Of a stretch of 64,000 nucleotides of DNA, positions 50,971 through 54,220 are shown piece by piece. The stretch is from Siphonodentalium dalli. Taxonomy: Eukaryota > Mollusca > Scaphopoda > Gadilida > Siphonodentaliidae. The notes under the pieces were generated by a model, which saw only the letters and a list, made by a program, of their open reading frames with translations, ran no database searches and was not told the DNA's origin. The position numbers and the translations under genes are program-made. The stretch is taken from NCBI GenBank assembly GCA_032622095.1, contig CP136066.1:116519319-116583318 (forward strand), written 5' to 3'. Numbering within the stretch: position 1 is the stretch's first letter; every line of letters begins with the position of its first letter.

Positions 50971-51781
50971 TTACGATGACGTATATAATGTGTTCTTTTT
51001 TGACGATGTGAGTGATTTTCGTTTTGTCCCTTTTGGTGTATCATTTGTCGCTCCTAATATCTTTAATGTTTCTTCCTCTGCTTTAGCTGCCAACTTTGCA
51101 TTTTTCCCACGCAGTAAAGTTTTAATTTCTGTCTCCAGCTTATATATTCTCTCATTGAGTCGCGATTCTACACTCAATTGGTGAAATTTCATTTCCTCAA
51201 TGAGAGTTTGTAGCTCGGAAATTGTCATCTTCATTCGAAATGATACTGAAGCGTCCGTATACGATATTCGTTTTTGACTTATACGACCTCTTGGGATAAT
51301 GAAACTGACACCAACTCGCGATTTCTTTAACGAAAGTTTACCTTTCTGAGATACCGGAGTTTCCGTCAAGAGCGCAGATATAGGGTGAGAATTATGATTC
51401 TCCATAAGTTCATCCCAAGTATACATGCCGTGTTGAACGGATACGTCAAGTCCTTCTGTGTTCATGACAAATTCCTCGATGTTAGCACAATGATGAATCA
51501 CGGGGAGTTCAGTATCTAGCCACCAATCTACACTTAACTTCGATCCTTGTATCATCACTCTGTTATTCGTTTTATATATGTGTACTGTTACTTTTCTTTT
51601 TGGCTTTTTCTTAATTATTGTTATCAAGTCTCCAACCGTTATACCATTCGTATCTGTCACAACCTTCCACAAAGCACCATTCTTTTCCGTTTTCTTCGAA
51701 TTATTCCAGTATCTGTCCACAAAACCTTTTGTATATTTTGCAAATCTAACATTGTCCGCTATATTTTTGTTCCGATTCTAT
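50971..51781 (-). pseudogene. LINE-A ORF1a, main part: paralogous domain and short coiled coil
   Basis: From about 51770 the minus strand reads KNIADNVRFAKYTKGFVDRYW, then ALWKVVTD, VTVHIYKTNNRVMIQGS and LSVDWWLDTELPVI. This is paralogous to the ORF1b domain (YWD, VWK, YKTQNKVMIQGS and EWW at matching positions). It is followed by a basic region, a coiled coil (ISELQTLIEEMKF to YKLETEIKTLL) and a Lys/Ser-rich end KGTKRKSLTSSKK. The stop at about 50971 separates it from ORF1b. Upstream it is broken by the gag-type element at 51782-53726; the N-terminus resumes at 53727. Function presumed RNA binding by position, not shown. Confidence 0.7.
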
Positions 51782-53726
51782 TATAGTGTTGTGTCTTGGA
51801 TATGGGACTGCGTTTGTTAACACGACCAATGACTGTCCTCAATATCAACAACCCGTTTTCTAATCGGACTCTGACTTCTCTCACGGCCACGGATAGTTGC
51901 GTGTCACACTTCCGATTTGTTTCACATTAAAGTCTGTTATTCGGTTCATCCCATGTGTGCGAGCTGTGTTTGCTGGTATATTTCATGGATGGAACAACTA
52001 CGATCGAGTATGTCGATATTGCAGTTATTGGCTTTATTAATCCATATCCATGTGACATGTCGGATGTAACATTCACGCATCGATCATCCGAGTCCTCAGA
52101 GTACCCATCTTCTTCCACTTTCATACATTGATCGTTTGGGTATAGGGAATATACATTTATGTCCAATGCTGTGCTTGCTGATGTTCGAACATTTATCTTT
52201 TTGAGAGACTTACATGCATTTGGAATCTCCTGGCTGTTGTGATGGCCATAAGAATAAAACACATGATTGTCAACAAGAACAATGGACTTCTCTGGTTTAA
52301 TCGTCAATTCATTGATGTTCATGAATGAATCTCCTGCCAGTATGTCGATGTTCAGATTTCCCGCGACTACCGCATCTAAGTAGAATAGGGACCCACCACG
52401 AGATAGTGTTAGACTTGCATGACCAACAACTGATACCAGCAATCCATCATCTATCTGGATAGTAATGTGTTCTGCTTCAGTGATACATATACCGAGGTCC
52501 TCAGCAAGCGAGCGATCAATCAAATTAATGTCCTGACCTGACTTAAGACTCACACACACGATTTTGTTGTTATAATATAAGTCAATTCTTGGTGAGTTGA
52601 CGTAGTCACATCTCGCAGTCAAATGATCGTCTTCGACAAACAACAAGTCACCGCTGTTGGGTTCATTAAGATCAGTCATTCCAGTGGATATGGACACTTT
52701 GTCTCGTGACATCTGGCTCAAGTATGTGGAATCGCCTGTTTCTTCCTTTCCAATCTGCCCATGCACATACGATGGACCTGATGGATCAGTTGTACAAACA
52801 CATACCCTCTGATGTTGTTCGATAAGTGGGTACGAAGCGATATTATCTGGTAAAATATCCGAGCAGGACACATTTACATGTATTTCTTCCTGTTGCACTA
52901 CCAATTTCTCTTCTGCTGGCTCTGCATAACAATTTTCCTCAACCGAATAGAATCCAAAGTGTACTCGAATCATTCTCCAAATACTTTCCTTGAAGTTCGA
53001 CCTTTTGACGATAGAATAGCGTGCAATTATTGGACAATATCTTGCGATATGTCCTAGCATTACCTCTAAGAGAGCAACTTTCTGACTCGCAATTCTGCGG
53101 CTGTCTATTTGCATGTTGTCGTCATCACTGACAAATCCTCTGAGTGGATTGGCCTTTGTTTTCATCAACCACGTAGTGCCTTCAACTAAGAATGGTTCAA
53201 AATTGTCGTCCATTGACAGTGATCGTACGATGGTACTTCGCCACTCTCTAACTGAAGCTACCGTCTCTGTCTTTGTCAAACACCACGGTGTTATAATGTG
53301 TGTTGATGCCACGCTCTATACTGGTACGTCGCGAATGTCGGACCACGTGTTAGTTCCAAAATGAAACACCCAAATGAAAGAATACTTTTCAGCGGAATTT
53401 CCCCGTCGGTCAGCTGCTGCGTCGAAAATATGCAATGTAGTTCACCCAACTCCGACTTGTGGACTGTCACTTCCTTGTTCAATGTAATGGAGACGAAGGT
53501 TTTATATCAACGCTGCCACCACGCCATTACTTTGGTAGTTACATAGTCGGGTAACCAACACAAATGACAATATTCGATCAAATGAGTATTTATTAGAATG
53601 AGACAATAATACACGTGGTCAAGATTTCCGACCCAAACCAAGAGAGAGAAAACCTGGTTTGTTATAATAGAGGACAGTCATTGGTCGTGTTAACAAACGC
53701 AGTCCCATATCCAAGACACAACACTA
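51782..53726. mobile_element. 1.9 kb element with 57-bp perfect terminal inverted repeats and a gag/protease-like ORF
   Basis: The terminal repeats are 51784-51840 (starts tagtgttgtgtcttgg) and 53670-53726 (its exact reverse complement). CTAT borders both sides (51778-51781 and 53727-53730), a candidate 4-bp target duplication. LTR retroelements carry direct repeats, so the inverted ends are unusual. It lies inside LINE-A ORF1a: coding similarity of ORF1a continues on both sides. Confidence 0.82.
51927..53312 (-). CDS. Gag-like protein with degenerate retropepsin-like region, LTR-retrotransposon type
   Basis: A 461-codon open frame inside the inverted-repeat element. Residues about 20-130 (SVREWRSTIVRSLSMDDNF, EGTTWLMKTKANPLRGF, VALLEVMLGHIARYCPII, ESIWRMIRVHFGF) resemble the gag of Ty3/gypsy-like elements of aquatic invertebrates, as recalled and not searched. 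Residues about 250-350 have the layout of an aspartic protease: IDLYYNNK, an expected D-T/S-G position here read as LKSGQDINLIDRSLAEDLG, then NLNIDILAGDSFMNI where retropepsins have a DILLG-type motif. The catalytic Asp-Thr/Ser-Gly triplet is not present, so protease activity is doubtful. No zinc knuckle, reverse transcriptase or integrase follows. The role is not established. Confidence 0.6.
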   Translation of the reverse strand: MASTHIITPWCLTKTETVASVREWRSTIVRSLSMDDNFEPFLVEGTTWLMKTKANPLRGFVSDDDNMQIDSRRIASQKVALLEVMLGHIARYCPIIARYSIVKRSNFKESIWRMIRVHFGFYSVEENCYAEPAEEKLVVQQEEIHVNVSCSDILPDNIASYPLIEQHQRVCVCTTDPSGPSYVHGQIGKEETGDSTYLSQMSRDKVSISTGMTDLNEPNSGDLLFVEDDHLTARCDYVNSPRIDLYYNNKIVCVSLKSGQDINLIDRSLAEDLGICITEAEHITIQIDDGLLVSVVGHASLTLSRGGSLFYLDAVVAGNLNIDILAGDSFMNINELTIKPEKSIVLVDNHVFYSYGHHNSQEIPNACKSLKKINVRTSASTALDINVYSLYPNDQCMKVEEDGYSEDSDDRCVNVTSDMSHGYGLIKPITAISTYSIVVVPSMKYTSKHSSHTWDEPNNRL

Positions 53727-53856
53727 CTATGGCGTTGTCAGAAAAGTTAACTTTCTTTTTCATCAGATTGTCCACATTAAGAGAGTATGTTTTGACATCT
53801 TTTAAAATAGATTCATTACAAAGTTCCTCATTATTAACAGCTTATGTGTCTTCCAT
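53727..53856 (-). pseudogene. LINE-A ORF1a, N-terminal end
   Basis: The minus strand from the ATG at 53856 reads MEDT, a stop codon, then VNNEELCNESILKDVKTY and SLNVDNLMKKKVNFSDNAI up to the inserted element. It resembles the leader of ORF1b (CRHEVVKDYNLDINKVVARK). This is the evidence that the gag-type element landed inside ORF1a. A premature stop after four codons marks it as decayed. Confidence 0.6.
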
Positions 53857-53914
53857 ATTGATAGATATAAGCTAAGCATTCAATATATTGATAGATATAA
53901 GCTAAGCATTCAAT
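53855..53914. repeat. Two perfect 30-bp tandem units
   Basis: atattgatagatataagcta plus agcattcaat occurs at 53855-53884 and again at 53885-53914. Confidence 0.9.
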
Positions 53915-53929
53915 ATATGTGTCATTTAA

Positions 53930-54220
53930 TATATGATGAAATGACAAAAAGCATAGCATTTTGACTGTTATGAGCATATGCTAGTTCATTTAAAAAACAA
54001 GTTGATACCTTATCTGTCCGGAAATACCCAGTAATTTTCTATAACATTCTGACCAAAGTTGCCAATCGGAGTTTCGTGGATACATATACATCTAGGAGAA
54101 TCCTTCGACTGACAACTTTGGCCAGAATGCTAGAGCAAACAACTGTGAGCTTTGACACAAATGGGGTATCAGCTTGTTTGAAAAAATAGTATAGCATATG
54201 CTCGTAGCTGCCAGCGTACT
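53930..54220. mobile_element. Foldback element
   Basis: The left parts gagcatatgcta, acaagttgatacc and cattctgaccaaagttg pair with caactttggccagaatg, ggtatcagcttgt and tagcatatgctc on the right, in correct nested order, around a centre near 54080. Confidence 0.7.

Follow-up and report, generated by a model that had tools for sequence, protein, structure and literature searches.

The window (the whole 64,000-nucleotide stretch of the Siphonodentalium dalli genome that was analysed) contains an insertion within a LINE-like repeat (51560 to 51757 and 53735 to 53884). The perfect 57-bp inverted repeats proposed from sequence alone (51784 to 51840 and 53670 to 53726) are real, and far above chance expectation. 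The right border of the element is at 53734, 8 bp beyond the end given in that sequence-only reading. The open frame on the minus strand (53312 to 51927) is likewise genuine, with 461 codons, or 428 counting from the first ATG. The components are listed here, where A and B are two families of LTR element described below.

51786 to 51946, plus strand: family A LTR, positions 11 to 171 (U3 and downstream), with the U3 end outward (left) and the first 10 bp absent
51938 to 53521, minus strand: family B internal region, positions 1 to ~1584, truncated on its 3′ side, with the primer binding site at its start
51927 to 53312, minus strand: 461-codon frame, with a Troyka-like Gag start and a degenerate protease (KSG for DSG), and no zinc finger
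53511 to 53521, minus strand: primer binding site TGGTGGCAGCG, the complement of the tRNA-Leu 3′ end
53522 to 53669, minus strand: R and U5 of the family B LTR, which lacks its first ~70 bp here and closes with TGGCG
53670 to 53734, minus strand: first 65 bp of the family A LTR (U3), starting CGCCA, fused to the B LTR as a hybrid 5′ LTR
53735 to 53737, plus strand: TTG, the would-be duplicated 3-bp target, in its sole remaining copy (empty site in L081-L083)

The element is a chimera of the two families, in which the U3 of A is joined to the R and U5 of B, followed by a B internal region and an inverted A LTR; the start of R within the hybrid 5′ LTR is a presumed one. Read along the minus strand, A LTR positions 1 to 65 (53734 to 53670) lead into the B LTR from ~70 (53669 to 53522) and the primer site, and the B internal region from 1 to 1584 (to 51938) then leads into antisense A LTR from ~171 to 11 (51946 to 51786). 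At this inner joint both families read TATTC[A/G]GTT. The 57-bp repeats correspond to the beginning of U3 in the LTR of the small, non-coding family A. The left LTR piece is 99% identical to that of L022 and has one substitution relative to the L008 LTR up to position 171, while the TA at 51784-51785 is compatible with both host and LTR. The internal region is 95-97% identical to L032-L035, which are direct-LTR elements, and the stop and last few codons of the frame are supplied by the antisense A LTR. To the right of the insertion the window also contains a 77-bp imperfect inverted repeat whose arms are 73% complementary and 31 bp apart (53995 to 54179).

The host repeat has further copies, and searches with the flanks together with three cut-outs gave the uninterrupted sequence GATTCTATTATA TTG TCAGAAAAG. 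The empty site that the earlier reading suggested seeking was recovered, as ATTATA, TTG and TCAG in direct succession in other copies of the repeat. The right junction is exact, with CTATGGCG running directly into TTGTCAG. At the left junction GATTCTATTATA abuts GTGTTGTG; 13 bp are gone, i.e. TTG and LTR bases 1-10, with TA common to both sides at the break. The window copy has no target duplication. The candidate 4-bp CTAT duplication was mistaken on both sides, as the right-hand CTAT lies inside the LTR end CTATGGCG and is near-universal among copies, and the left-hand CTAT is host sequence that is also present in the empty site. A single contig carries four units of the LINE-like repeat at ~9.2-kb intervals (G000 C6:120511879-120539816), which suggests that the repeat forms a tandem array.

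A search with the left end returned 44 matches at ~25 loci, mostly as direct-orientation pairs ~1.09 kb apart. These define family A, 1.3 kb in length, with two direct 211-bp LTRs (CGCCATAG...TCTGGCG) and a geneless internal region of 875 bp. Direct LTRs with 3-bp duplications are found at more than 10 loci (L002 CTG, L003 AGG, L005 TAT, L008 CAA, L014 TTG, L018 GAA, L020 CTA, L022 TAG, L023 GTA and L025 CTG; also the solo LTR L029, ATG). Two independent copies (L008:2755-2797 and L089:190-226) read U3 to ~39 and then GGCG (GGACTGCGTTGGCG), with a matching 3-bp duplication; their shared ending is an LTR end composed of U3 sequence and no more than the final bases of U5.

Searches with the internal part and its protein gave family B, ~2.7 kb in length with a 2278-bp internal region and direct LTRs of ~217 bp (CGCCAGTGGG...AATGGCG). 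Direct LTRs with CGCCA...TGGCG ends are present in L032-L036 and L039, and 3-bp duplications flank L032 (CAG), L033 (TTG), L034 (CAG) and L035 (CTT). In two full copies the frame has 575-578 codons. In both families a primer site starting TGGTGGCAGCG (in some A copies TGGTAGCAGC instead) directly follows the 5′ LTR, and the 3′ LTR is preceded by a polypurine tract whose last bases are GTGGTT(A/G). The ends of the tRNA-Leu gene (GGTAGCGTGGCCGAGCGGT ... TCCCACCGCTGCC, 81 bp together) are present hundreds of times in the genome; with at most one mismatch we count ~640, many of which are arrayed in tandem in contig 8 (G000 C8:150909576-150986744). A B-type element at L056:838-1651 carries an inverted piece of A internal region (591-496), and is a second A/B chimera.

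The same genome contains an intact 5.5-kb gag-pol element, L084, with 208-bp LTRs that are 100% identical and a CTG duplication. Its single frame of 1654 codons has the order PR-RT-RH-IN, although the match to the integrase core is weak (E 0.02). The zinc finger CPLCQQAGRLEYNHFLSQC is CX2CX9HX4C, the reverse transcriptase has LADD, and no GPF/Y motif was found in the integrase part. The primer site of L084 reads TGGTGGCACAGG, so that its tRNA need not match that of A and B. The likeness of the window frame to gag and a degenerate protease is borne out when a full family B copy is compared with L084. The B frame is 57% identical to the start of its Gag over 114 aa, and 26% identical to its protease region over 176 aa, with the catalytic DSG replaced by KSG; the part of Gag between these, including the zinc finger, is absent. 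A Pfam search of the frame gave nothing significant, and the gag-pol link came from the genome's own element. Several copies of the B frame contain stops. The sequence-only reading had singled out the intact frame and proposed a dN/dS comparison; the frame is indeed intact, but pairwise dN/dS values of 0.52-1.13 among four copies indicate no strong constraint. The open frame in the window can mostly be ascribed to youth.

Troyka has been proposed as a superfamily in its own right, with CGCCA...TGGCG ends and 3-bp duplications as its signature, LTRs of 100-400 bp, a single Gag-Pol frame in the order PR-RT-RH-IN, a CX2CX8-10HX4C zinc finger, no GPF/Y motif and internal regions of 1,553-7,691 bp (Kojima 2025, PMC12440569). 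Kuafuorterviruses have LADD, IADD or VADD where YXDD is expected (PMC11673190), and since the paper on them cites Troyka and reports shared traits, we treat the two as one lineage. The CGCCA...TGGCG termini are found in A, B and L084, and 3-bp target duplications at more than 20 loci of these types, though lost at the window copy; LTR length also agrees. L084 alone has the single gag-pol frame, with the zinc finger, LADD and lack of GPF/Y, and A and B are non-autonomous. On the basis of LTR ends, duplications, frame and motifs, A, B and L084 are assigned to the Troyka (Kuafuortervirus) lineage. Unlike published Troyka elements, family A has an internal region of 875 bp, below the reported range, and A/B chimeras and inverted insertions with U3 ends outward occur here. 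The word 'inverted' is absent from the text of the Troyka paper, which makes no mention of inverted copies (PMC12440569).

Family A resembles a TRIM in its two 211-bp LTRs, primer site, polypurine tract and geneless internal region. TRIMs are short, gene-free LTR retrotransposons; family A differs in its Troyka ends, 3-bp duplications and recurrent inverted derivatives. TR-GAG elements are LTR elements that carry gag only, and family B is similar in keeping a gag-start and protease-like frame with the polymerase absent, but the catalytic Asp of the protease-like part is lost in the copies read and there is no zinc finger. DIRS1-like elements rely on a tyrosine recombinase and leave the target unduplicated. 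The window copy is like them in being a retroelement with inverted terminal repeats, but it ends in the U3 of ordinary LTRs, and its relatives have 3-bp duplications and an integrase core; a DIRS1-like assignment was rejected. A Penelope-like or ribozyme-bearing element (tandem repeats of the end, 387-bp spacing) was rejected too, as Rfam gave no ribozyme and the LTRs, primer site and 3-bp duplications decide.

The earlier reading had asked for other copies with the same inverted ends, and several smaller ones exist. At least seven more U3-out inverted copies were found, in three Troyka families, four of them with matching 3-bp duplications, as follows.

L028: family A, 226 bp, CAG on both sides
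L016: family A, ~380 bp, TAT
L088: family A, ~320 bp, CAG, with the right end one base short
L057: family B, 344 bp, ATG
L024 (A), L085 (B) and L086 (autonomous-type LTR): inverted arrangement, no clear duplication

In L086 both ends are present, flanked by TAG and ATG. The 3-bp flanks match in all four A and B copies that have both ends, for which the chance is ~(1/64)^4, i.e. ~6e-8. The U3-U3 copies with matching duplications indicate that integrase can insert cDNA with two U3 ends. Among the best candidates listed in the surveys, U3-out inverted copies make up roughly a fifth of A-family loci, with some in B and the autonomous family; these frequencies are rough. Every copy has its own inner joint; in L088 the sequence reverses at the palindrome TTGTTAACAA, in the manner of a fold-back. 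The LTR in L016 and L057 leads into a copy of the primer site that runs on as tRNA-Leu (TGGTGGCAGCGGT...), with GCGGT in place of GCGTC or GCGTT. This is suggestive of plus-strand strong-stop DNA, where the run-on is two bases in L016 and the extra bases in L057 also fit the start of U3. Other copies are scrambled (L014, L027, L087, L089 and L056), which suggests that switches between strands and between families are frequent. Literature searches on inverted LTRs with integrase or palindromic cDNA gave nothing relevant, and no description of U3-U3 insertions was found in the literature searched.

The open frame between inverted ends and the several smaller inverted copies could be read as a DNA transposon or MITE-like element with a captured gag, moved by a DDE transposase in trans, one of the two origins suggested from the window alone. 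However, the ends are U3 ends of LTRs, belonging to families whose structurally complete members have direct LTRs, a tRNA primer site and a polypurine tract; the 3-bp duplications and CGCCA/TGGCG termini are those of Troyka; and the inverted copies vary in size and content as if they had arisen separately. Nor are inverted ends a shared state, most A and B copies having direct LTRs. No transposase or DDE transposon sharing these ends was observed, and the autonomous element whose ends do match, L084, is a retroelement with gag-pol. As things stand a cut-and-paste origin is refuted, and we give it almost no credence. The other suggestion, a rearranged LTR element, was correct. As grounds for rejecting its idea the earlier reading had named direct LTRs in other copies, with this one a single inversion; other copies do have direct LTRs, but a single inversion does not agree with a chimera of two families or with U3-out insertions at other loci.

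A rearrangement after insertion, in which nearby A and B copies of opposite orientation were fused by deletion or inversion, would accord with the left end lacking 10 bp of LTR, the missing target duplication and the short shared stretches at the joints; indeed the marks of template switching are the same as those of microhomology repair after insertion. Yet the empty site is not otherwise disturbed, so a single insertion between ATTATA and TTG accounts for the locus. A hybrid 5′ LTR with the U3 of A and the R-U5 of B is typical of reverse transcription, and the matching 3-bp flanks of other U3-U3 copies are not expected from later fusion, making this rather unlikely. Another reading is autointegration, a known source of inverted LTR arrangements in retroviruses; here integrase would have joined a U3 end into its own or a second cDNA, with the product then inserted. 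It requires joints at a CGCCA/TGGCG terminus, however, whereas in L028, L088, L016 and the window copy the joints sit within the LTR or internal region, at filler or where short stretches are shared or palindromic; we consider it improbable.

We think it likely that the window copy is a non-autonomous, chimeric Troyka-type LTR retrotransposon that was made by template switching during reverse transcription and inserted by means of two U3 ends. RNAs of the defective A and B families would be reverse-transcribed together, presumably after co-packaging, using enzymes from an autonomous Troyka element. A template switch would create the hybrid 5′ LTR. The growing plus strand may then leave B at about internal position 1584, switching at TATTC[A/G]GTT to a plus-strand A LTR, although the switches may have come in another order. 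Copying of this LTR to its U3 end would give a cDNA with two U3 ends, each starting CGCCA, that integrase could join to the host at TTG, and the 13 bp missing from the left junction would have been lost later or during repair. Since the window copy has no duplication and an imperfect left end, we infer the action of integrase at both of its ends from its relatives. Two-U3 cDNAs probably arise when one plus strand switches template to another. That Troyka integrase regularly inserts such molecules, with TIR-ended, MITE-like by-products recurring as a result, seems to us somewhat better than an even prospect, and the near-symmetric CGCCA/TGGCG ends may be the reason that U3-U3 pairs are used.

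The superfamily is already known, and the uncommon part is the recurrence of U3-U3 products with normal 3-bp duplications. These natural insertions show that an LTR-retroelement integrase is able to use two U3 ends, and the window copy also records that two non-autonomous Troyka families were mixed in the course of reverse transcription. Elements with inverted ends are not necessarily DNA transposons, and annotators would class such copies as MITEs or TIR elements. A search for inverted CGCCA-ended LTR pairs with 3-bp duplications provides a simple genome-wide test for many species with Troyka elements.
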